From: Edaphobacter sp.
GTDB lineage: Bacteria > Acidobacteriota > Terriglobia > Terriglobales > Acidobacteriaceae
Length of the DNA: 64,000 nucleotides
Direction: 5' to 3'
Assembly: GCF_028283685.1 (NCBI RefSeq)
Contig: NZ_JAPWKF010000001.1
Location: 744,001-808,000 of the forward strand
Shown: one piece after another, positions 483 through 26,217 of the stretch
How positions within the stretch are numbered: position 1 is the stretch's first letter
Layout: each line of letters starts with the position of its first letter
Notes under the pieces: generated by a model
The model's input: the letters and a program-made list of their open reading frames with translations, nothing else
Told to the model about the DNA's origin: nothing
Databases searched by the model: none
Program-made: the position numbers and the translations under genes

Positions 483-1601
483 TCACGATACTCGATACCT
501 TTGCACCGCATCCTCGTCCAGCTCCACTCCCAAACCAGGCTCATCAGGTATTTGAAGATATCCGTCCTTCGCCGTGAATTGCTGATGAGTTAGCATGTTC
601 CGCAAGTTGGTTCCGTCCTGTGCCACGAATTCGCAGATCAACGAATTGGGTACAGCGTTGAGCCAGTGAAGGGCTGCGGCAACATTGATGTAGGTCGTGA
701 AACCGTGATTTGCCACCGGTAGACCACGATCCCAAGCAAGGCTGGCAATTTTCATCGCTTCGGTGAAACCGCCGCAGCGAGCCAAATCTACTTGCACTAC
801 GTCGATCTTCCCGACATCCATCAGGTCAACGTAGCTGAGTCGAGAACTTTCCTCTTCGCCTGCTGCGATCCTTATTTCCGTTGCCTCGCTCAAGCGGCGG
901 TAGCCCTGGTAATCATCAGGACTTAACGGCTCTTCCAGCCAGAAGAGATTGAAATCGGAAAATGCTTTAGCGCGGCGAATCGCCGTTTTGGCGTCCCAAA
1001 CCAGACCTGCGTCGATCATGAGGTCAGCTGAATCGCCGAGCCCCTTTCGTGCCTCACGCACCAGCGCGATGTCGCTTTGCTCACTTTGCCCCATCGGATC
1101 CCAGCCAAACTTCACTGCGGTGAAGCCCATGTCACGGTAGCGCCTCGCGATATCTCCGGTCAGCTGAGGAGTCGCTCCAAACAACGAACTCGCATAGCAA
1201 CGAATTGTCTTGTGAAATCCTCCCCCCAGGAGCTTCCACACTGGAAGCCCCAAAGCCTTCCCCTTGATATCCCATAGAGCCATGTCAATGCCGCTCATGG
1301 CATGAATAGCTATGCCGCGTCGGCCCGAGTATATGTTGGACCGATACATTTTGTACCATATCTTCTCGGTCTCCATGGGATCTTCTCCCACTACCAGATG
1401 ACCAAGTCCCGACGTGATGGTATGCGAGAATGGACCCTCGATCACGCCCTTCACAGCCATAGGATTGGAGTCCACTTCGCCGATACCCGTGATGCCAGCG
1501 TCGGTCTCCACACGTACGATAATCACATCTTGCCCGCTATCGCATTGCTCTTTCACCTGCGGTAGCCGAACATAAATCGCTTCAACCCGAGTTATTTTCA
1601 C
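483..1601 (-). CDS. mandelate racemase/muconate lactonizing enzyme family sugar-acid dehydratase
   Basis: A 372-residue enolase-superfamily enzyme of normal length. Visible active-site pattern: a lysine in AVKFGWDP, metal ligands in LMIDAG, FWLEEPL and AAGEE, and a histidine in VANHGF near the C-terminus. This Lys/His arrangement is that of acid-sugar dehydratases such as galactonate or rhamnonate dehydratases, which remove water from an aldonate to give a 2-keto-3-deoxy acid. Translation appears to begin at GTG (1599-1601), about 10 bases after AAGGA. It shares a strand with the downstream mutarotase-like gene. With the lactonase and dehydrogenase across the TonB receptor it fits an oxidative sugar route. 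The exact substrate cannot be read from sequence. Confidence 0.85.
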   Translation of the reverse strand: MKITRVEAIYVRLPQVKEQCDSGQDVIIVRVETDAGITGIGEVDSNPMAVKGVIEGPFSHTITSGLGHLVVGEDPMETEKIWYKMYRSNIYSGRRGIAIHAMSGIDMALWDIKGKALGLPVWKLLGGGFHKTIRCYASSLFGATPQLTGDIARRYRDMGFTAVKFGWDPMGQSEQSDIALVREARKGLGDSADLMIDAGLVWDAKTAIRRAKAFSDFNLFWLEEPLSPDDYQGYRRLSEATEIRIAAGEEESSRLSYVDLMDVGKIDVVQVDLARCGGFTEAMKIASLAWDRGLPVANHGFTTYINVAAALHWLNAVPNSLICEFVAQDGTNLRNMLTHQQFTAKDGYLQIPDEPGLGVELDEDAVQRYRVS

Positions 1602-1757
1602 TTTGACCCAATCCTTTCCTACTTGGACTTCGCATTATGTTCAATCGACAATGCGCATAATTTAGACTCTCAGCCCACTGACTGAAGAAGCTGGTACGCA
1701 CTGACGGACGGAAGTTCGCGATTTTCATAAGAACTTCGCAGCCGCATTGATAGCTAC

Positions 1758-4700
1758 TCAGAACAGAAATTTCATCGCCACCTGTCCGATTCGTGGGTCA
1801 CGCGCCGATGTGACAAATCCGAACGCTCCGTTGTTGATATTTCCAGAAGGCGTTAGGAACTGTGCGTGGTTGAGCACATTGAAGAACTCGACACGAAGCT
1901 CAAGACGTTTGCCCTCGGTCAGCCGCGTGTCTTTCATCAACGCTGCGTCGAGATTGTTGATACCGGGTCCGCTGAAGAACCTGGGCATGGAGTTGCCGAT
2001 GACACCCTCTGTCTCCTGGGAAAAGAGACTCGTATTGAAATATGGTTTGCAGCTAGGATTCTTCACACAGGCACGAGGATCGGCTCCGCGCTGAAGGGAA
2101 CCTGGCTTATAGTTGGGCACATCGTTAGTACCGCCACCACCGCCACCGCCTGTTCCCGTCAGAGACTGGTCGTCTGTTTCAACCATAGTCACAGGCTGCC
2201 CCGAAGCGAAGCGGACTATTCCTGATAACGTCCATCCCTTAGTCAGTCGGTTAGACCTTGTAAGCGTATCGAACGGCAACTCATAGTGATAACTGGCTAC
2301 CAGGTTTTGAGATACGTTGAATGCTGAAAGCCCTCGGCTTTGACGATGGTTAAAGGGATTGATCAGGTCGCTATAGCCGGAGGAGTTATCGATCGACTTA
2401 CTCCACGTATAACCCACCAGGAACTCTATTGGGCCCGTTCGGTATTTCCAAGTACCTTGAAGCGAATTGTAATTAGAATTTCCGATCGTGATCTCATAGT
2501 TGTCGCTGCCAAAATTCGGGCCCAGAGTAGTACGCGTGCCATTTATCACCGTGCCGCGGTTGGTCGTGTACACGCCACTCTCCCCCCCGGGGCCGCAAGT
2601 GGCGCTTCCTGGCGCCACCTGACTGGCCTGGCTCACACTCAGGCACAATGCCGCGTCGCCTGGATTGGCTTGCATGTTGCTCAGCAACGCATGGCCCTGT
2701 GTACCAACGTAGGACACCATGAACAGGCTGTTGGGGCCGAGCTGACGCTGGATAGATAGGCTATAGTCTTCGGCGTAAGGAACTCGATTTTTATACCAAA
2801 ACCCGGGCGAACCTGAAATGGGAAGAAACTGAGCCCAATTCAAAGTTGTATTCGGGTTATTGATAGAGGGCGCCGTTGGAATGTCAACTGGGAAACGCTG
2901 ACCGTTGTCAAACCCGGTCTGCCGATTTACGAACGGTGTGGCGAATAGCGGCGGCGCGGGGCTTGCCCAAAAATTGCCGTACGGTGCATCTCCGGCCTCA
3001 TTCTGACCTCCTACGTTTTCAAAGGAAGTGTAGAAAATTCCAAACGAAGCTCGGATACTTGTATTGCCGGGAGTTCCAATCAATCGCGACAGCAGTCCGC
3101 TCGTCGCCTTCGGAGCATAAGCCAAGCCAACGCGAGGAGCTAGGTTCTTATAGCGCGTGGGTGCCAGGGTCTTCGGGATTCCAGGGTCTCCGGGGAAGAC
3201 CCAGCCTTTTGGGGCTCCAGGAAATATTTGTGACTGCAATCCTGGCACGATGGTTTCGATCCGCCCCTGTGCTTCCGACCATGGCGTTGGTATATCTTCG
3301 CGCAAACCGTAGTTCAACGTAAGTTGAGAATTCAGCCGCCATGTATCCTGGACATAGAGACCAATATACTTAGCTTGCGCATACATGGGCGCCTGAACGC
3401 CCTGATCGAACCCGGACGGGGCTCCCAGCAGAAAATCTACGAAGTCGCTGCCGGTCTCCGCCCCGCTAAAGGCAAACAAACCGTTGTTATCGGCTGTTAA
3501 GTGCAGTGATATTTTGGCATAATTCGCCATGCCCCCGAACTTGATGTCATGCCTTCCCTTTGAAATCGAGAAGTTATCCATGATCTCGTACGTGTTATGA
3601 ACCCACTTAGGCGCGAAATAAGTATCCACACCAAAGGTATAGTTGTTGAGCGTAATGGACGGAACACCTTCGACAGCGGGATTCTGCGGAACGATTCCGG
3701 TTGCATCCGATGGAAAGCCGAGGGAAGCAAGGCTCACACCAACACCGCCGGAAGGAATGGTGCTTGGCGAAAACCGAAAGTATTGGATCCGGAACTCGTT
3801 GAGCATGGATGAATTAATCGTTGTCGTGTCGGAGACATTCAGCATAATGGAGCGATTAGAGACGGTATCGCTGAATCCGGGAAGCGTGGAGGAAAGATAG
3901 GGCTCCGTACTCTCTGCCTGATCCTTATAAAAGTAGCCTGAAATCGCATTCGATTTAGCCGTCCAATCGATATGGACAGCCCCCTCGTTATCATTATTTA
4001 GCTTGTTGTAGCTAGAAGTCGTGAAATAATTTCCCGAATTTCTCTGAGGAATGTACGCCAAAAGGTTCGTGCTTATCGGACTAATCGCATTGCTTGGAAT
4101 GACTGCATTGGGAAAGACACAACTTGCGGTAGACGTACAACCCGACGAATAATAAGGCTCGCCGGCAGCAACCTTATACCTAAGTTTCTGCGACAGCAGA
4201 CTTGCCCAGTAGTCTCCTTTGACTGTGCCGGACAATTGACTACTTAGATCTGATACATCCCCTAGGCGATTGCTTGCCGACGGTACAGGAATGAGGCCAG
4301 TATTTTGCCCGATGTCCTGACGGGTTCCCTGATAATCGACAAAGAAGAAAAGCCGCTTGGGAAGGATCGGTCCACCAAAAGTAGCCCCAAACTGGCTCTG
4401 AATATATTTAGCTCGGTCGAGAGCATAAAAATTGCGGCTATCGAGCAGAGTATTGCGGAGAAACTCGAACACGCTACCGTGATAGCTATTGGTTCCGGAC
4501 TTAGTAATGACATTGACCTGTGAGCCACTGAATTCGCCATACTCTGCGTCAAAGTTATTTGTCAGAATTCGGAACTCCGCTATCGAGTCGAGATTGGGAA
4601 CGATACCCGCACTATTCTGATTTCCTTCTTCTACCAGCCCACCGTTGATCATGAATGCATTGGCAGACTCGCGCCCCCCGTTGACCGAGAGCGTCCCCCC

Positions 4701-14008: not shown

Positions 14009-15232
14009 TCACCTCTGAGACACGCGTGTAGTCAAAGCCCAGATTCCCAGAGCTGCCATGCTGAAAGAGGCTCCCAGCGCACACACACCAGCCCAGTGAA
14101 AAGCTGCATATGTTCTGGTAGCGGCGAGAGCGCCGACGCCGCTACCAACGGAATAAAACACCATGTATGCAGCCACCAGGCGGCTCTTTGCCTCAGGCCG
14201 TGCAGCGAAGATCATACTTTGGTTCGTTACATGCACCGCCTGTACGGCGAAATCGAGAAGAATAATTCCAATGACCAGCGCCAGAAGTGATCGGTGCAGA
14301 CATGCAATGCATATCCACGAGATGAGCAGAATCCCCAGGCCAATACCGGTCGTCCACTGTCCCCACCCCTGATCAACCAGTTGTCCTGCTCTTCCGGCGG
14401 CAACTGCGCCTGCCACGCCTGCTAACCCAAATAAGCCAATCGCCGTATGCGAGAGTGGATGCGGCGGCTCGCTTAGAGGCAACACCAAAGAGGTCCACAG
14501 CGTGCTGAATGCAGCAAACAGCAGCAGTGCAATTGCTGCCCGGACACGCAGGACAGGAGTTGTGACGTAAAGCGCAAAGGTTGAGCGAAGAAGCTGCGCG
14601 TACGAACTTCGCATTTCGGACCCGGAATCCGGAATGATTCGAGACAACGTGCCGGCCAAGACCAGAGTTAGCAGCGCCGACGTAAGGTAGACGGCCCGCC
14701 AGCCTCCTATATCGCTCAAAGCTCCTGCGACTACACGAGCCAGCAGGATGCCCAGCACGACACCGCTGGTTACCGTACCGACCGCGCGACCGCGTTTCTC
14801 GGGAGGGACAAGGCTTGCGGCAAATGCCACCAATACCTGGACCACCACGGCCAGGAGCCCAACGAAGAACAGGCCGATGAGCAACAGCCATTCCGAAGGA
14901 GCCAGACCCACAAGAGCAAGCACAATTGCGGACAACGAGAGTTGAGTTAAGACGAGCCGCCGGCGGTTCAAGAGGTCGCCGAGAGGTACGACGAAGAGAA
15001 GTCCCACAGCATAGCCAATCTGGGTCACCAGGATGACCGAGCCGGCCGACGACCGGCTGAAGCCGAACTCCTGCGCCATCGAGTCAAGAAGCGGCTGGGC
15101 ACAATAAATATTCGCGACGCTGATCCCGGCAGCTATGGCAAACAGCAACAGAGTAACTTTTGTAAGCTGCCCGGTGTGGCTTGCTTCAATCTCAATCCGC
15201 GAACAGGCTGCCGGCGGTTTTGCGCACAACAT
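14009..15232 (-). CDS. MFS transporter, drug/metabolite efflux type
   Basis: 407 residues with twelve predicted helices. Helix 1 reads LLLFAIAAGISVANIYCAQPLL and the loop 2-3 signature is GDLLNRRRLVLTQ, with the family hallmark RGRAVG in the central loop. It resembles the MFS group that often sits next to HxlR or TetR regulators. ATG 15232 has TTGGAG upstream. An HxlR regulator diverges from it across a palindrome, so it is probably induced with that regulator's ligand. Likely proton-driven efflux; substrate unknown. Confidence 0.85.
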   Translation of the reverse strand: MLCAKPPAACSRIEIEASHTGQLTKVTLLLFAIAAGISVANIYCAQPLLDSMAQEFGFSRSSAGSVILVTQIGYAVGLLFVVPLGDLLNRRRLVLTQLSLSAIVLALVGLAPSEWLLLIGLFFVGLLAVVVQVLVAFAASLVPPEKRGRAVGTVTSGVVLGILLARVVAGALSDIGGWRAVYLTSALLTLVLAGTLSRIIPDSGSEMRSSYAQLLRSTFALYVTTPVLRVRAAIALLLFAAFSTLWTSLVLPLSEPPHPLSHTAIGLFGLAGVAGAVAAGRAGQLVDQGWGQWTTGIGLGILLISWICIACLHRSLLALVIGIILLDFAVQAVHVTNQSMIFAARPEAKSRLVAAYMVFYSVGSGVGALAATRTYAAFHWAGVCALGASFSMAALGIWALTTRVSQR

Positions 15233-16993: not shown

Positions 16994-17019
16994 GTAACTT
17001 TTTCCGCCTCTGGATCGAA
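16994..17019 (+). promoter_or_regulatory. SigF-like ECF promoter of the bufferin operon
   Basis: GTAACT at 16994-16999, exactly 16 bases, then CGAA at 17016-17019, 81 bp before the precursor ATG. As I recall, the Caulobacter SigF promoter is GTAACC-N16-CGAA, and that sigma factor with anti-sigma NrsF drives the bufferin (gig) genes. Since this operon ends in an ECF sigma and an NrsF-like gene, the site is probably recognised by its own sigma. A second GTAACC at 17047 lacks a matching -10. Confidence 0.65.
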
Positions 17020-17100
17020 CCTTGCTAGTGAGTGGGTAGGCAGAATGTAACCGACGTGCCCACATCATTTTTGTAAAGCACTCACTAGGAGATTGAATTT

Positions 17101-17430
17101 ATGACCAACCGTGTCCTGTCCACCCTTATTCTTGGCGCATTCGCAACCGTGCTCAATCCTGCGCTCGTCGCGCACGCCCAGGATGCTCCAAGTCCTGAGG
17201 CGCAGAAGATCCGAGAGCACAACACCAAGCTGGTTAAGTCCGGCAAGGTTGAGCCCTGCTTTGGCGTTGCCCTCAAAGGGAAGAACGACTGCTTTGCCGG
17301 CGCAGGAACAACGTGCGCAGGGACGAGCACCGCGGACTATCAAGGCAATGCATTCAGGCTGGTTCCCAAGGGAACATGCACCGCGATCCAGACGCCCAAG
17401 GGCAACGGCACTCTTAGCCCTAAGGCATAA
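17101..17430 (+). CDS. bufA: bufferin precursor (DUF2282 / BufA1-like)
   Basis: 109 residues with a signal peptide (hydrophobic residues 6-20, cleavage near VAHAQ). The mature part has the DUF2282 layout with four cysteines at 53, 64, 72 and 93, in [21 protein letters not shown] and VPKGTC. Members are RiPP precursors; in characterised bufferins an MNIO enzyme converts cysteines to thiooxazoles and the product binds copper in the periplasm. Strong AGGAG ribosome site 9 bases before the ATG. First gene of an operon with the modifying enzyme, its partner, a DoxX protein and a sigma/anti-sigma pair, which makes the assignment firm. Metal specificity here is inferred. Confidence 0.88.
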
Positions 17431-17451
17431 CAGGTTACAGAATTCTTCTGC

Positions 17452-17485
17452 AGCGCAGCGGCCGGCAAGCGTTAGCCGCTGCGCT
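17452..17485 (+). promoter_or_regulatory. intra-operon hairpin between bufA and bufB
   Basis: Perfect 11-bp stem (AGCGCAGCGGC and GCCGCTGCGCT) with a 12-base loop, 22 bp after the precursor stop. No U-tract follows, so it is more likely a partial terminator or an mRNA-stabilising end that lets the precursor be made in excess over its enzymes, as is common in RiPP operons. Confidence 0.6.
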
Positions 17486-17531
17486 CTACCTATATCGACC
17501 ACTCCAATATTAATGCTAAGGCAAAGGCGTC

Positions 17532-18422
17532 ATGCACTCTTCGAAGCAAAATTCGTTCACAAAGAGAATGCCCTATGGAGCGGGCGTTGGATTGAAGGCT
17601 GAGCATTACGCTCGCATCCTGGAAGAACGTCCGATGATGGGCTTCTTCGAGGTGCACGCTGAAAACTACATGGGACCTGGTGGACCTCCACACCGATATC
17701 TATCAGAGATTTGCAGATACTACCCTCTGTCGATTCATGGTGTAGGCTTGTCGATTGGCGCCGATAGCCCGCTTGATTTACAGCATCTGAAGCGACTGAA
17801 AGCCCTGGTTGACCGCTACCAGCCTGCACTCTTTTCTGAGCATCTGGCATGGTCCTCTCACAACGCAGGCTTCTTCAACGATCTTCTTCCCGTCCCATAC
17901 ACGAACGAGACGCTCTCCCGAGTCGTCGAGCATATCGATGAAGTGCAGGAGGCGCTGGGGCGGCGGATGCTTCTCGAAAATCCTTCCACATATCTTGCCT
18001 TCGAAGAAAGCACTTATGCGGAGACAGACTTTATAGCTGAAGTGGCAAAGCGATCAGGGTGTGGGCTGTTGCTGGACATCAACAATGTCTTTGTTGCCTG
18101 CACCAATCAACAATGGAACACGGCGAAGTACCTCAAAGAATATCCGCTGCATTCGGTGGAGGAGATTCACCTTGCTGGTCATGCCGATGAGCTGGATGAG
18201 TTCGGCCGTCCGCTTCTAATCGATTCGCATGATCGTCCTGTCGACGAAACTGTCTGGCAGTTATACGAATTAGCCGTTGCAAAGATCGGCCACGTGCCCA
18301 CGTTGATCGAGTGGGACACGGAACTTCCGGATTGGCCCGTCCTACAGCGCGAAGCCAGACGCGCCGAAGAGATCCTGTTTTCACATGCGGCCGAAGGAGC
18401 GTTTTGTGACCTCATTGCATGA
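17532..18422 (+). CDS. bufB: bufferin maturase, DUF692 multinuclear non-heme iron oxidase (MNIO)
   Basis: 296 residues, a TIM-barrel MNIO of the MbnB/BufB type. Conserved metal-site motifs are all seen: EVHAENYM, SIHGVGLSIG, FSEHLAWS, LLENPS, LLLDINNVFV, EIHLAGH and LIEWDTELP. The family uses two or three irons to oxidise cysteine residues of a precursor peptide into heterocycles. No signal peptide, so modification occurs in the cytoplasm before the precursor is exported. ATG 17532 with AAAGG close upstream. BufC overlaps its end, indicating coupled translation. Confidence 0.93.
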   Translation: MHSSKQNSFTKRMPYGAGVGLKAEHYARILEERPMMGFFEVHAENYMGPGGPPHRYLSEICRYYPLSIHGVGLSIGADSPLDLQHLKRLKALVDRYQPALFSEHLAWSSHNAGFFNDLLPVPYTNETLSRVVEHIDEVQEALGRRMLLENPSTYLAFEESTYAETDFIAEVAKRSGCGLLLDINNVFVACTNQQWNTAKYLKEYPLHSVEEIHLAGHADELDEFGRPLLIDSHDRPVDETVWQLYELAVAKIGHVPTLIEWDTELPDWPVLQREARRAEEILFSHAAEGAFCDLIA

Positions 18423-19215
18423 ACGTCAATATGAGTTCGCGGCGGCCCTCCTCGACCCCACCGCGAGTATTCCTTCTGGACTGGTCGGCCCGGATGGCAG
18501 ACCAAGTGTGCGGCGTTTTGGCGTGTATCGTAACAACGTAATTGTCGGCCTTGTAGATGCTTTGCGCGGCACCTATCCTGCAGTCTGCCGCCTTGTTGGA
18601 GAAGAATTTTTTCTCGCCATGGCCAGAATGTATGCCACACAGCATCCGCCGGAGAGCCCCGTCCTGATCTCGTATGGCGCCTCCTTTGCAGGCTTTCTCG
18701 AGCGCTTCGAGCCAGTGAAGGATCTACCGTATCTTCCCGATGTTGCAAGGATGGAGTATGCATGGGTTGAGTCGTATCACGCAGAGGAGTCCGAGCCTCT
18801 TGCTGTCAGTACGCTCGAGACCATAGCGCCAGAGGACCTGCCTGGGCTGCGATTTCACTTTCATCCCTCTACTCGTCTGGTCTCTTCGAAATATCCTGCG
18901 CTGACGATATGGCGTATGAATCTGGGAGATATCGAACCCGCAGAGATTGCCCTTGCGGACAGCGAGGCAGAAGAAGTTCTGATCGTGCGTCCGCGGTCGC
19001 ACGTAGAGGTGCGAGGTCTGCTCCATAGCCATGCACTCTGGATCCAACAGCTAATACGCGGTGAGACTGTTCTTTCTGCGACAGCGAGCGTGCTTGAGTG
19101 CATCTCCGACTTCGATCCTGCCGCCGCACTTGTGCTTCTCATGGAGTCAAACGCAGTCAAAGGCCTTCAACTCGATCCGACAAACCACCTTGGGAGACAG
19201 AATGATGCACGCTGA
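18406..19215 (+). CDS. bufC: DUF2063 bufferin partner protein (BufC/HvfC-like)
   Basis: About 269 residues. The N-terminal DUF2063 domain is plain (HERQYEFAAALLDP, then RRFGVYRNNVIVGLVDALRGTYPAVCRLVGEEFF in two conserved helices, listed here as RRFGVYRNN and TYPAVCRLVGEEFF) with a C-terminal beta-rich domain. Partner of MNIO enzymes, thought to present the precursor peptide. GTG 18406 is preferred: AAGGAG sits 6 bases upstream and the product then begins like family members; the ATG at 18385 has no ribosome site. It overlaps bufB by 17 bases. Confidence 0.9.
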   Translation: MTSLHERQYEFAAALLDPTASIPSGLVGPDGRPSVRRFGVYRNNVIVGLVDALRGTYPAVCRLVGEEFFLAMARMYATQHPPESPVLISYGASFAGFLERFEPVKDLPYLPDVARMEYAWVESYHAEESEPLAVSTLETIAPEDLPGLRFHFHPSTRLVSSKYPALTIWRMNLGDIEPAEIALADSEAEEVLIVRPRSHVEVRGLLHSHALWIQQLIRGETVLSATASVLECISDFDPAAALVLLMESNAVKGLQLDPTNHLGRQNDAR

Positions 19216-19756
19216 GATGAAAGACGGATCGTCGAAGCCGCTAGCTCTTCTCTGTGCAATAGAGGGCAGCTTGCGTTCCCTGGGACATACGCTGGCGCCT
19301 CCTGTCCTGCGAGTTGCACTTGCGCTCCCGTTTTTTCGTTCGGGCAAAACCCGATGGGATGGATTCCCTCATCTTGCATTTGCTACCCCCTTTCTCTTCG
19401 AAGATGTCTTCAAGTTGCACCTGTTGGGTCATGCATTCAGCCTTCCCTCACCTGTGGTGACAGCCTATGTTGTTGCCGTCGCCGAGATTGTTTTGCCGAC
19501 GCTGCTTGTCCTCGGACTGGCCACTCGCCAAGCCGCTCTCGGACTACTGATCATGACGGGCGTGATTCAACTGGTCGCACCCGATGGCTGGGCCAATTTC
19601 CACCTCTACTGGGCCGCCATCGCACTGGCGATTCTGGCCCTGGGCCCTGGCAAGCTTTCTTTAGACTTTGCAATGCAAGTCGCGGCACGAAATCGCAGGC
19701 AATTATCTATTACAGAGAAAGACCAACCCGTGGTTTCATGGAAACAGCAGCAGTGA
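19202..19756 (+). CDS. DoxX family membrane protein of the bufferin operon
   Basis: 184 residues, four membrane segments after a 35-residue cytoplasmic start. The DoxX pattern is visible: LRVALALPFFRSGKTRWDGF, a helix around VVTAYVVAVAEIVLPTLLVLG, then ALGLLIMTGVIQL and LYWAAIALAILALGPG. ATG 19202 overlaps the bufC stop and has GGGAG 5 bases upstream. DoxX proteins are regular members of bufferin operons (gigD in Caulobacter as I recall); they may serve redox steps at the membrane. Exact role unknown. Confidence 0.85.
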   Translation: MMHAEMKDGSSKPLALLCAIEGSLRSLGHTLAPPVLRVALALPFFRSGKTRWDGFPHLAFATPFLFEDVFKLHLLGHAFSLPSPVVTAYVVAVAEIVLPTLLVLGLATRQAALGLLIMTGVIQLVAPDGWANFHLYWAAIALAILALGPGKLSLDFAMQVAARNRRQLSITEKDQPVVSWKQQQ

Positions 19757-19766
19757 GCGCGTGCGA

Positions 19767-20399
19767 ATGACCTCTCCTAAATCAGATCGGATGCAGATTG
19801 TGCCGCGACTGGAGTCCTCTTCCGGAAGCGCAGAGAATGCCGCCTACCCGGAGGCACGCGATCTGGACTGGAGCATTCTGATGGCACGCGCTCAGGATGG
19901 TGACACCGAAGCATATCGCCGCCTGCTTGAGCAGATCACGCCCTATCTTCGCCACCTCGCATCCAAACGGCACCGCGACCCTCGCGACATAGAAGACTCT
20001 GTTCAAGACATTCTGTTGACCGTCCACGTAATCCGGCAAACGTACGACCCTTCTCGCCCCTTTGGTCCCTGGCTGGTGGCGATTGCCAACCGCCGCATCT
20101 TTGATCGCCTTCGCCGAAGGATCCGCGAGATTCATCGGGAGGAGGCATTTGAGCCAGATCAGCACATCCACTCCAAGGGTCCATCCGAGATCAATGCACT
20201 GGCAGACCGCAAACTCCTGGAGGATGCTATCCAGAATCTACCTCCGACACAGCAGACGGCGGTCCGAATGCTTAAGCTGGAGGAGATGTCCCTGAAAGAA
20301 GCCTCAGCGCGGAGCGGCCTCTCCACAACCTCGCTTAAAGTTGCGACACATCGTGCGATGAAGGGTTTACGTAAAATTCTTGGCGGAGGGGGAGAGTGA
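19767..20399 (+). CDS. sigF: ECF sigma factor, SigF-like
   Basis: 210 residues. Region 2 runs from DWSILMARAQDGDTEAYRRLL to RPFGPWLVAIANRRIFDRLRR (DIEDSVQDILLTVH being the core-binding part) and region 4 from LPPTQQTAVRMLKLEEMSL to TTSLKVATHRAMKGLR. Starts only 10 bases after the DoxX stop; ATG 19767 is chosen, with GTG 19761 possible and the ribosome site weak. The next gene encodes its presumed membrane anti-sigma. It probably recognises the GTAACT-N16-CGAA site before the precursor gene, making the whole operon autoregulated. The symbol reflects resemblance to Caulobacter SigF. Confidence 0.85.
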   Translation: MTSPKSDRMQIVPRLESSSGSAENAAYPEARDLDWSILMARAQDGDTEAYRRLLEQITPYLRHLASKRHRDPRDIEDSVQDILLTVHVIRQTYDPSRPFGPWLVAIANRRIFDRLRRRIREIHREEAFEPDQHIHSKGPSEINALADRKLLEDAIQNLPPTQQTAVRMLKLEEMSLKEASARSGLSTTSLKVATHRAMKGLRKILGGGGE

Positions 20400-20401
20400 C
20401 G

Positions 20402-21043
20402 ATGCGGACCTCTGACCTGATTTCCTCTTTGACAAATAATGTGACGCCCGTGAAGCGTCTGCGCTCGCCCTGGGTGCGTGCCAGCCGTTGGCTCTTGCTG
20501 GCCTCGGTCGTCTTGGGCCTCTTGACTGTCATGCAGGGTGTTCGTCCAAACTTTATGGAGAAGATGCAGCAGCCCTCCTTCTTCATTGGAATGCTTGCAT
20601 CGTTACTGACCGGAGTATTCGCTACCATTGCGACGTTCATGGTCAGCCTTCCTGACCGCTCCAGGCGTTGGCTGCTGCTCCCACTCCCGACGCTTCTGCT
20701 CTGGGTCGCAAATATCGGCTACCAATGCCTGGAAGGGTGGGTTCCCGTCCGTCATGGCGACGTTTCGCTTGGCATTGCTACCAGTTGCCTGGCCACGTTA
20801 GTTCTTACCAGCCTGCCGCTATCGCTCGCAATGTTTGCGATGCTCCGCTACTCGGCCGCTTTCCGGCCGATGCCGGTCATCCTGATGGCAAGCCTTGCGG
20901 TCTCTGCGCTCACTGCGAACGCACTCTCGATGTTTCATCCTATGGATGCGACCGTCATGATCCTGGGATGGAATCTCGGAGTCGCTCTGATCTTTGCTCT
21001 CCTGGCAATGCTCTTTGGTCGAAGAGCCATTCAGCTGGAGTGA
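20402..21043 (+). CDS. nrsF: NrsF/DUF1109 membrane anti-sigma factor
   Basis: 213 residues with six predicted membrane helices after a short cytoplasmic start (MRTSDLISSLTNNVTPVKRL), the layout of DUF1109/NrsF proteins that hold SigF-type sigma factors inactive at the membrane. Two cysteines (in NIGYQCLEG and SCLATL) lie where NrsF proteins are thought to sense metals or redox stress. ATG 20402 with GGAG 7 bases upstream, 3 bp after the sigma stop. Last gene of the bufferin operon. Confidence 0.88.
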   Translation: MRTSDLISSLTNNVTPVKRLRSPWVRASRWLLLASVVLGLLTVMQGVRPNFMEKMQQPSFFIGMLASLLTGVFATIATFMVSLPDRSRRWLLLPLPTLLLWVANIGYQCLEGWVPVRHGDVSLGIATSCLATLVLTSLPLSLAMFAMLRYSAAFRPMPVILMASLAVSALTANALSMFHPMDATVMILGWNLGVALIFALLAMLFGRRAIQLE

Positions 21044-21183: not shown

Positions 21184-21495
21184 ATGTCGATCGTTGCAGG
21201 TGTCATTTCTTTCAAAGCAAAGCCAAATCGCGGCTCCGAACTCGCTAACCTAATCGCCGCTGCCCTGCCTCACGTGCAGGAAGAGCCGGGTACGCCGCTT
21301 TGGCTGGTACTTCGCTCCAATGCTGATCCGGAAACTGTCTTTCTGGTTGATCTATTTCAAAACGCGGAGAGCCGTTCGGCACATATGACTGGAGATGCGG
21401 CAAAGCTCATCTTTGCTACAGCTCCCGAACTTCTTGCTGAAGAGCCTGTCATGCATCCTTCCGACCTGATTGCGGCCAAGGGATTCATGTCGTAG
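21184..21495 (+). CDS. antibiotic biosynthesis monooxygenase (ABM) domain protein
   Basis: 103 residues, one ferredoxin-like ABM domain: IVAGVISFKAKPNRGSELANLI, VQEEPGTPLWLVLRSNADPETVFLVDLFQN. Such small proteins act as quinol monooxygenases or polyketide oxygenases, often without cofactor, but many are uncharacterised. AAAGGAG lies 6 bases before the ATG. It follows the anti-sigma gene by 140 bp and precedes an SDR by 169 bp; hairpins downstream suggest it can end its own transcript. Confidence 0.8.
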   Translation: MSIVAGVISFKAKPNRGSELANLIAAALPHVQEEPGTPLWLVLRSNADPETVFLVDLFQNAESRSAHMTGDAAKLIFATAPELLAEEPVMHPSDLIAAKGFMS

Positions 21496-23669: not shown

Positions 23670-24199
23670 TCAGAACGTGACCCGGCCACCGAGTTGGATC
23701 AGTCTCGGGAAGCCGAGCGTTCCTGTGACCTGTCCAGCACCGGAGTTGTAAACAGCTGAATTGGTCGAGGTGCTCCAGCTGCCCACGGTGAGGTTGGGCG
23801 TGCTGAACTGCGGTGTGTTGAAGGCATTCAGAGCTTCGGCGCGAAACTCCGCTCGAATGCGTTCCTTGATATGGAACTGCTTGTTAAGCGAGAGGTCGAA
23901 GTTGGCATAACCCGGCCCCTGGCAGCCTACAGCGCGCGGAGCTGTTCCGAACGGCAGGCTGCCGCCCACCGTCGGAGGAGGCGTAATGCTGAAGGCCTTC
24001 GGGTTGAAGTATTGCGATAGCCGATCCTGCGGCCTTCCGCTCCTGCAGGGATTCATCCCAGCAATCAGGGATGGCCGCTGTGTACTGTTGCCGTAGGAGG
24101 TAATGTTGTTCGTCTGTACGATCGCGAGAGGGCTCCCGTTTTGAATGATCGTGACGTCGTTGAAGTTCCACCCGCCAACCAGAAGGTCGAGCCAGTGGT
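23670..24199 (-). pseudogene. TonB-dependent receptor C-terminal fragment
   Basis: The frame reads as the last 170 residues of an Oar-like receptor barrel: LDLLVGGWNFNDVTIIQNGSP in two halves, YFNPKAFS, PGYANFDLSLNKQFHI, RAEFRAEALNAFNTPQF, and a terminal Phe in LGGRVTF. The signal peptide, plug and most of the barrel are absent. It stops abruptly near 24195, where it meets a DUF1624 gene fragment in the opposite orientation. Remnant of a much larger gene. Confidence 0.85.
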
Positions 24200-25204
24200 T
24201 CTTACTCGCTGGATGAAGCATCTTTGCGCACCAACCTTCATTCTTCTTGCAGGCACATCGGCATGGCTTCAGCATGATCGGGGCAAGTCCACACCAGGCC
24301 TCTCTCTCTTTCTACTGACTCGCGGCCTCTGGCTGATCTTTCTCGAGGCCACGGTCATCAGCTTTGGATGGACGTTCTCCATTCCCTATCTGATCTTCTT
24401 CCAGGTGATGTGGGCCATCGGCTGCGCGATGATTGCCTTTGCTGCTCTTGTGTGGCTCCCGCGCGTCGCCGTGCTGGTCATGGGGTTGGCCATCGTCGTG
24501 GGACACAACCTTCTTGACCGCGTTCCGCCTGGCATCTTCGGCCATCTCCCCACGCTATGGGCCGTGTTGCATATGGGCGGACAGTAGCCGCAGAGTAACT
24601 CGCCCGTGCTGCTGACGACCGGGCAGGCGTGATGGCTCTCGGTTACGGCATGGGCCCGCTCTTTGTCTCTCGCGAGCGCAGCCGACTCTTCCTCGTGATC
24701 GGTGCGTCTCTTTTGGCGTTGTTCTTTGCGCTCCGATCTCTGAATGTCTACGGCGACCCGCACCCCTGGGCGATGGGTGCGACGCCAGGGCAGACGGTCA
24801 TGCACTTCTTCAACGTGCAGAAATACCCGCCCTCCCTGCTCTACCTCACTGTCACCCTCGGCATCGCCTGTCTGCTCGCCACGCTGTTCGATCGCTGGCG
24901 CGGTCGTCTCACCGACGTTCTTCGCGTATTCGGCTCCGTTCCGCTCTTTGCCTACGTCTTGCATATCTATCTTCTCCATGCGGCGAATGTAGCGCTGCTC
25001 GTGCTTACCCACCGCCCGACTCTCGGTACCTTCGACCAGACGCGCACCGCCTTTCTCGAACCGGAAAAGCTCGCTGGTTCGGGTTTTCCGTTGCCGGTCA
25101 TCTTTGCGGTGTGGTTAGGCGTTCTGCTCCTGCTCTATCCGCTATGCCGTTGGAGGGCATCTCTCAAATCCAGGAACCACTCCTGGTGGCTGTCCTATCT
25201 CTGA
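24200..25204 (+). pseudogene. broken DUF1624 (heparan-alpha-glucosaminide N-acetyltransferase-like) membrane protein
   Basis: Two consecutive frames carry pieces of one DUF1624 protein. 24200-24587 has LTRWMKHLCAPTFILLAGTSA and LLTRGLWLIFLEATVIS; 24629-25204 has VMALGYGMGPLF, HFFNVQKYPPSLLYLT and PLFAYVLHIYLLHAANV. The N-terminal helix with the usual DxxRG motif is missing, cut at the TonB receptor junction, and stops in all relevant frames at 24585-24600 separate the halves with about 25 residues lost. Not functional as it stands. Confidence 0.8.
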
Positions 25205-25883: not shown

Positions 25884-26141
25884 CTTTGGCAGCACGATGC
25901 AAAGCATGGCTCCATGAAGGACGTGCAGGCACACTTGCGTCACGCCAGCATCACGACCACGGGGAATATCTACGTGCAGGAGATTCCGGAGACAGTTCGG
26001 GCTGCCGTCAACGCCACAACGAACGAGATTCTAGGACTGGAGAATGAACGGAAAAGACAGGAATCTCAAAAGCACAGAAACAAAATATCCCGCATTGTTC
26101 CTCAATTGAGACTACCAATGCCGCCTAAATTGTTGGTTTGA
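25884..26141 (+). pseudogene. tyrosine recombinase (phage-type integrase) C-terminal fragment
   Basis: The frame reads HDAKHGSMKDVQAHLRHA and then SITTTGNIYVQEIPETVRAAV in the next part: the last catalytic block of tyrosine recombinases, with the HLRHAS histidine and the nucleophile Tyr in NIYVQ. All upstream catalytic residues and the DNA-binding domains are missing. It ends one base before the 3' end of tRNA-Asn, the classic place for an island integrase. Confidence 0.8.
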
Positions 26142-26142
26142 T

Positions 26143-26217
<75 letters not shown>

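Follow-up and report, generated by a model that had tools for sequence, protein, structure and literature searches.

Genes and features of the bufferin locus

As shown in Table 1, a stretch of 64,000 nucleotides from an acidobacterium, Edaphobacter sp. (assembly GCF_028283685.1, contig NZ_JAPWKF010000001.1, positions 744,001 to 808,000; hereafter the window), carries seven consecutive plus-strand genes, all of them open reading frames and some preceded by a sequence resembling a ribosome-binding site. Six of these genes match the gene set for bufferin-1 (Buf1), a peptide that in Caulobacter is reported to bear thiooxazoles on its two central cysteines and to chelate copper; bufferins have also been reported to absorb near 305 nm (PMC12452194). 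The Pfam domain matches of all seven genes exceeded the curated cut-offs, and the order and strand of the first six (DUF2282, DUF692/MNIO, DUF2063, DoxX, an extracytoplasmic function (ECF) sigma factor and NrsF) are those proposed in an earlier note on this DNA, which had been written from the letters alone. The profile search suggested in that note, with DUF2282, MNIO, DUF2063 and NrsF, returned a Pfam match for each.

Table 1. Features of the window, with positions counted from its first letter
Feature	Position	Strand	Basis and remarks
Sigma-F/ECF16-type promoter motif, GTAAC-N17-CGAA (GTAACT-N16-CGAA)	16994..17019	+	pattern match; 26 bases; ends ~80 nt upstream of bufA
bufA, DUF2282 (Buf1) precursor, 109 amino acids, four Cys	17101..17430	+	PF10048, 77.5 bits vs cut-off 22.4, E 7.7e-22
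bufB, MNIO bufferin maturase, 296 amino acids	17532..18422	+	NF050167, 388.4 bits vs cut-off 310; PF05114 (MbnB_TglH_ChrH), E 7.7e-106
bufC, DUF2063 partner protein	18385..19215	+	PF09836, E 1.7e-25; overlaps bufB
doxX, DoxX-family membrane protein	19202..19756	+	PF07681, E 6.8e-13; start codon picked by eye
ECF sigma factor, SigF/RpoE7-like	19767..20399	+	PF04542, E 1.1e-11, and PF08281, E 8.4e-10 (sigma-70 regions 2 and 4); start by eye
nrsF (DUF1109), anti-sigma factor	20396..21043	+	PF06532, 98.4 bits, E 6.6e-28; GTG start overlaps the sigma stop; start by eye
Antibiotic biosynthesis monooxygenase (ABM) gene	21184..21495	+	PF03992
MFS gene, outside the operon	14009..15232	-	
Repeat protein, 134 amino acids	16424..16828	+	TGPNGNTA-type repeats
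Outer-membrane beta-barrel fragment, C-terminal	23670..24275	-	PF25183, positions 687-838 only
Remnant resembling a tyrosine-recombinase C-terminus	25914..26141	+	touches the tRNA; counterparts next to tRNA-Asn in other genomes of the genus are 50-58% identical
tRNA-Asn(GTT), at the right end of the low-GC stretch	26143..26217	-	ARAGORN

The identification as a bufferin operon, also put forward in the note, was borne out by the score of BufB against the NCBIfam model for the MNIO family bufferin maturase and by the DUF2282 membership of the precursor. The BufB alignment spans nearly the full length of intact relatives, and the best solved relative is 3bww. All four cysteines of BufA, as had been described, align in each of the seven sequences compared, the one from the window included; a search of BufA against the PDB sequences gave no match up to an E value of 1. 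Inspected by eye, the N-terminus of BufA (a basic start, a hydrophobic core and AHA-QD) reads like a Sec signal peptide. Judged from their sequences, the six genes between 17101 and 21043 form a complete Buf1 set, with the bufABC order included.

The claim that the operon is tightly packed was accurate apart from bufA and bufB, which are separated by 101 nt. Genes overlap at three junctions (bufB/bufC, bufC/doxX given the start picked by eye, and sigma/nrsF, although an ATG at 20402 is an equally possible start for nrsF). The note had further placed a transport-side gene in the unit. Since Pfam revealed no transporter gene within the operon, and the MFS gene lies outside it, this part of the description is unsupported.

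Directly upstream of the bufferin promoter there is a gene for a small repeat protein (Table 1), which matched nothing in Pfam or NCBIfam up to an E value of 0.01.

Promoter motif and sigma/NrsF pair

The position at which the earlier note had its unit begin, 16994, is the first base of a promoter motif of the type recognized by sigma-F in Caulobacter (consensus GTAACC-N16-CGAA; PMC3511200) and by ECF16 sigma factors (consensus (T/C)GTAAC-N17-CGAA; PMC8315932). The base preceding GTAAC in the window is a G, as against T or C in the ECF16 consensus.

Conservation of the motif was assessed at 88 loci, in the ~420 nt that precede the BufA match (L013, L022, L073, L110 and L129, which had no BufA match, were dropped), with the same stretches reversed as controls. 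At the loci where both sigma and NrsF were detected, a motif matching at least nine of ten positions was present in 16 of 22, the window included, vs none of 22 when reversed; at the other six it fell below this level. The remaining 66 loci, at which the two genes were not both detected, had such a motif in 12 cases, vs one of 66 in the reversed stretches. This second class includes L010 and L011, where the window's NrsF failed as a query despite an adjoining sigma gene, and where the motif was perfect (10/10).

At the scale of the whole genome the pattern was not enriched: GTAACN15-17TCGAA occurred at seven sites, vs 27 for the reversed pattern, and GTAACYN16CGAA at seven, vs 12. Consequently, a wider regulon beyond the operon, which we had considered, cannot be called.

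The presence of an ECF sigma gene and an NrsF-like anti-sigma gene within the operon, as stated in the note, was confirmed by the adjacent PF04542, PF08281 and PF06532 matches. The importance attached to this arrangement was overstated, because sigma and NrsF genes have already been published as parts of Buf1 clusters (PMC12452194) and SigF/NrsF controls Buf1 operons in Caulobacter (PMC3511200).

The NrsF of the window differs from the published proteins in its cysteines. Cys131 and Cys181 matter in Caulobacter NrsF (PMC3511200), and in Brucella the equivalent of the second one, C179, has been proposed as the signal detector (PMC8315932). Numbered from its GTG start, the window protein has Cys111, Cys131 and His181, so that Cys131 is kept and Cys181 is absent. 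We aligned 37 open reading frames following sigma genes, three of which (L064, L127 and L011) turned out to be the wrong frame. Twenty-two frames were of the window type (sigma 50-100% identical, window included); they had been detected by the window's own NrsF and are thus related by selection. Cys111, Cys131 and His181 were present in 21 of the 21 correctly extracted window-type frames, the window's among them, and the correct stretch of L064 showed the same cysteine pattern. A cysteine occupied column 181 in 12 other frames, whose sigma factors are 33-40% identical (one of them, L129, has an atypical tail), and the NrsF of L010 had Cys131, an arginine at 181 and no Cys111. While the equivalence of Cys181 and His181 hinges on the alignment (FHCP vs FHP), the absence of a cysteine there does not. 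As the alignment reads, one of the two cysteines has shifted position in the window-type group, a change that may be a new detail. On our own reading of the hydrophobic segments of the protein, Cys111, Cys131 and His181 would face the periplasm. Since this sensing site differs from that of classical NrsF, we would file the pair as NrsF-like, by family and context, and we infer its membership of ECF16.

Elsewhere in the genome (L001, C1:711089; 1072-3721 of this locus, ~710.7-713.3 kb of C1) we found a Buf2-like operon that, like the one in the window, encodes a precursor, an MNIO enzyme, a DUF2063 protein and a DoxX protein; the two MNIO enzymes are 38% identical. Its precursor, rich in Cys and Lys, scored 36 bits against the BufA2 profile (cut-off 60). 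No window-like sigma or NrsF was found within the 19 kb around this locus, the genome as a whole giving a single NrsF match, and a similar regular expression for the promoter found no site at the Buf2-like locus L013. Relatives of this operon are widespread in the genus: a Cys-Lys-rich precursor frame lay just upstream of the MNIO gene in 20 of the 20 loci examined (L135-L153 included), with a core of four cysteines in 15 and of six in five, among them the genome studied here. Published Buf2 precursors have six or twelve (PMC12452194).

Phylogenetic position and genomic setting

Genome contigs were scanned for relatives of the operon, of which the best 80 of 577 confirmed ones were kept; six plasmid loci were added to these, giving 86 proteobacterial loci. 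All of the best 80 were Pseudomonadota in the tree, the top one being Ancylobacter sonchi (BufB 74% identical), and the best plasmid relatives were from Rhizobium (BufB up to 70.5%). The six genes occurred in the same order and direction at 17 of the 86 loci, and 15 had a divergent sigma gene. The window's sigma factor is 53-62% identical to those of four Rhizobium plasmid operons. A homologue of the ABM gene, 60-66% identical, stood directly upstream of bufA at six of the 86 loci, implying that this gene probably belongs to the cassette and travelled along with it, its place having changed.

In a BufB tree of 99 rows, the window's protein fell inside a group of 36 rows, all the others of which are Pseudomonadota (support 99/89). 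The other MNIO enzymes of the genus made up a group of their own (100/100), and so did four other Buf1 BufB sequences of the phylum (100/100), which are 41-44% identical to the window's. BufB matches were obtained in 43 of 62 genomes of the genus; apart from the window operon, every match listed was at most 40% identical. DUF2282 was detected in five of 396 genomes of the phylum, the one studied here included, and NrsF in 26 of 398 genomes of the family (above the cut-off in 19), the genus being represented among the 26 by this genome alone; the absences in these figures are not exhaustive because both sets were sampled from larger groups and the NrsF scan scored at most seven candidates per genome. 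Taken together, the unusual host of this operon is very probably best explained by acquisition from a proteobacterium.

If the operon were instead ancestral in the phylum and had disappeared from almost every relative, without any import having occurred, one would readily understand why DUF2282 operons occur in four other genomes of the phylum, with a sigma gene detected beside two of them and a perfect GTAACC-N16-CGAA upstream of BufA in three. Such a history is very unlikely, considering that the BufB proteins of those genomes group apart from the window's, which nests among Pseudomonadota, that none of the other 61 genomes of the genus gave a listed match above 40%, and that the GC content of the region is atypical. 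The four loci concerned (L009-L012) represent a separate Buf1 lineage in the phylum.

The guanine-plus-cytosine (GC) content was 0.51-0.57, in 4-kb bins, between a point ~4 kb outside the window's left end and ~26 kb within it, a stretch of ~30 kb. The values were 0.59-0.61 on the right flank and mostly 0.58-0.62 on the left, where they dropped twice, to 0.55 and 0.57. At third codon positions the operon genes had 0.51-0.67, whereas two core genes in the window reached 0.84 and 0.87. The low-GC region ends at a tRNA-Asn gene, which is touched by a recombinase-like remnant. The remnant itself was not matched by any integrase family of Pfam up to an E value of 0.1, and the case for an integrase comes from homologues beside the same tRNA, at six loci in five other genomes of the genus (L204, L197/L167, L163, L161 and L170; L154-L183 and L190-L217 were searched), one of which is PF00589-like at an E value of 4.4e-05, under the cut-off.

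Occupancy of the site is variable. In two of 20 genomes of the genus, five genes to the right of tRNA-Asn are syntenic with the window (74-88% identity), and in the same two none of the window's left-side genes lies within 10 kb to the left of the tRNA. The left edge of the island did not emerge from this comparison: on the left side of tRNA-Asn, the 60 kb taken from G036 and the 34 kb from G195 showed no meaningful synteny with the left side of the window, the sole match above 150 bp being one of 172 bp at 69%. The low GC content, the adjoining tRNA, the integrase-like remnant and the variable occupancy all agree with the genomic island surmised in the note. Remnant-like sequences adjoin this tRNA-Asn in the five other genomes mentioned, which suggests that integration has occurred at it repeatedly in the genus.

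With the closest relatives being proteobacterial (among the best 80 of 577) and the genome 93.5% complete, the stretch might be thought to be proteobacterial contamination or a misassembly. We find this scarcely credible. The stretch lies inside a 945-kb contig of a genome with an estimated contamination of 0.46%; its right flank is syntenic with two genomes of the genus; the MFS gene on its left flank has homologues, 63-69% identical, in four genomes of the genus; and no near-identical relative was found among the best 80 of 577. The window's large TonB receptor, whose best matches are Granulicella and Acidisarcina plasmids, likewise speaks against contamination and lends indirect support to the acidobacterial host assumed in the note.

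The low-GC region also contains what is apparently a decayed gene, of which just the part encoding the C-terminus of an outer-membrane beta-barrel protein is left (Table 1). The proximity of this truncated gene and of the integrase remnant might indicate that the imported cassette is itself silent or a decaying relic. This appears improbable, however, given that all seven genes are open, that BufA has kept its four cysteines and BufB aligns over almost its entire length, that the promoter motif is retained, and that ribosome-site-like sequences precede some of the genes.

Presumed function and comparison with known systems

By analogy with its relatives, the operon would work as follows. NrsF, in the inner membrane, would hold the sigma factor until metal stress, most likely from copper, is sensed by residues on the periplasmic side of NrsF and sets the factor free. 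The freed sigma factor would then read the promoter at 16994, leading to transcription of bufA-bufB-bufC-doxX-sigma-nrsF; with the sigma and nrsF genes inside the operon, the circuit would amplify its own production. BufB and BufC would convert the two central cysteines of BufA to thiooxazoles in the cytoplasm, BufA would be exported by Sec, presumably through its signal peptide, and the mature peptide would bind excess copper in the periplasm.

The operon might alternatively answer oxidative or chlorine stress rather than copper, in which case the sigma/NrsF pair would sense oxidants like its counterparts in other ECF16 systems. HOCl or reactive oxygen elicits a response from systems of this type in Brucella and Bradyrhizobium, and a methionine sulfoxide reductase belongs to the SigF regulon of Caulobacter (PMC8315932, PMC8224329); DoxX has been linked to oxidative or sulphur stress (PMC12452194), and the neighbouring ABM gene might point the same way, its role being putative. 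However, Pfam detected no methionine sulfoxide reductase gene in the window operon, and the SigF regulon of Caulobacter was induced by copper in all conditions tested, the sigF mutant being copper-sensitive (PMC8224329). We therefore judge this alternative rather unlikely, and continue to favor copper as the most plausible inducer.

A number of observations weigh against the overall picture of an imported, copper-responsive Buf1 operon. Some of its products score below the cut-offs of the corresponding NCBIfam families: BufC reached 41 bits against the HvfC equivalog (cut-off 142), DoxX 43.3 against the HvfX family (cut-off 80), and NrsF, far below, 16.1 against the NrsF equivalog (cut-off 300). 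The cysteine proposed as the sensor in published NrsF proteins is missing, so the inducing signal may differ. Taken alone, the promoter motif is no rarer than chance (three matches of at least 9/10 in the 64 kb of the window, vs 3.4 expected from 20 single-base shuffles). No direct repeat marking an attachment site was found, the 29-base pattern of the tRNA end occurring once in the genome with up to three mismatches; a shorter core is possible. In the BufB tree, one long-branch Paraburkholderia sequence (L052) joins the other members of the phylum, a position flagged as a possible long-branch artefact. The window's BufB has an end branch of 0.42 and a weakly supported sister grouping (88/41) that does not pin down the donor, meaning that the donor is unsampled or the transfer is not recent. 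Several of the 62 genomes of the genus are incomplete, and the best 80 of 577 relatives may have left out the window's own or very near records. Finally, H2O2, Cd and chromate each failed to induce the homologous operon of S. meliloti (PMC6180224), and the operon of Cupriavidus metallidurans had no effect on copper resistance, where other copper determinants may mask one (cited in PMC8224329).

All these points considered, it seems likely to us that the window contains a complete Buf1 operon equipped with an ECF16-type sigma/anti-sigma switch of its own, and that this cassette came from a proteobacterium and entered an accessory region next to tRNA-Asn. A further-reaching proposal can be offered tentatively, as a possibility with the odds against it: the window-type proteins might constitute a distinct NrsF subclass in which His replaces Cys181 and a new Cys111 forms a pair with Cys131 over a single periplasmic loop, so that the three residues make up a Cys-Cys-His site fit for direct Cu(I) sensing. 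Such a subclass would travel with Buf1 operons and their own promoter as a self-contained copper-sensing and copper-buffering cassette across phyla, the host supplying just core RNA polymerase and Sec.

Bufferins have been studied mainly in proteobacteria, as far as the literature that we found goes. A search for DUF2282 together with Acidobacteri yielded no paper, most of the subscription literature lying outside the search, and the matches listed for bufferin, Acidobacteri and copper were unrelated by title ('bufferin' also matches 'buffering'). One of the papers found for DUF692 with Acidobacteri describes gammaproteobacterial clusters (PMC8692599), and 'Acidobacter' was not found in the main text of PMC12452194, whose taxonomic figures could still tally acidobacterial Buf1. 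The operon itself adds one more member to an already described system; its points of interest are the import across phyla and the NrsF variant. A regulated metal-defence cassette, with its own sigma factor, anti-sigma factor and promoter, that moved to another phylum would be a clean case of long-distance portability, and the NrsF subclass would offer a direct handle on what this anti-sigma family senses.

The operon most resembles the Buf1 operons of alphaproteobacteria, such as those of Rhizobium sp. T136 (plasmid pT136c, L047), Ancylobacter sonchi (L053) and Bradyrhizobium (L055 and L062), which have the same genes in the same order and on the same strand, with BufB 68-74% and NrsF 56-65% identical and the same pattern of NrsF cysteines. 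Apart from the host phylum, the differences concern the ABM gene, which is downstream of nrsF in the window but upstream of bufA in the alphaproteobacterial operons, and a gene of ~329 codons between bufB and bufC, which the Rhizobium and Ancylobacter operons have and the window does not. The latter gene, which had no Pfam match, was seen at 16 of the 86 proteobacterial loci (e.g., L047, 6895-7881), in the bufB-bufC interval in 15 of them; its product is possibly an undescribed bufferin partner.

The SigF/NrsF regulon of Caulobacter, with the bufferin operons CC3254-CC3257 and CC2907-CC2905, shares the sigma factor, NrsF, DUF2282, DUF692, DUF2063 and DoxX with the window (PMC3511200). Besides the NrsF residues compared above (Cys131 and Cys181 vs Cys111, Cys131 and His181), it differs in that sigF-nrsF (CC3253-CC3252) constitutes a separate operon (PMC3511200). 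In Sinorhizobium, the ECF16 factor RpoE7/EcfR7 drives a DUF692/DUF2063 operon (SMb20530-20527) from a GTAAC...CGAA promoter; unlike in the window, the sigma/anti-sigma genes have their own promoter, and the NrsF cysteines are reported to be conserved with those of Caulobacter (PMC6180224).

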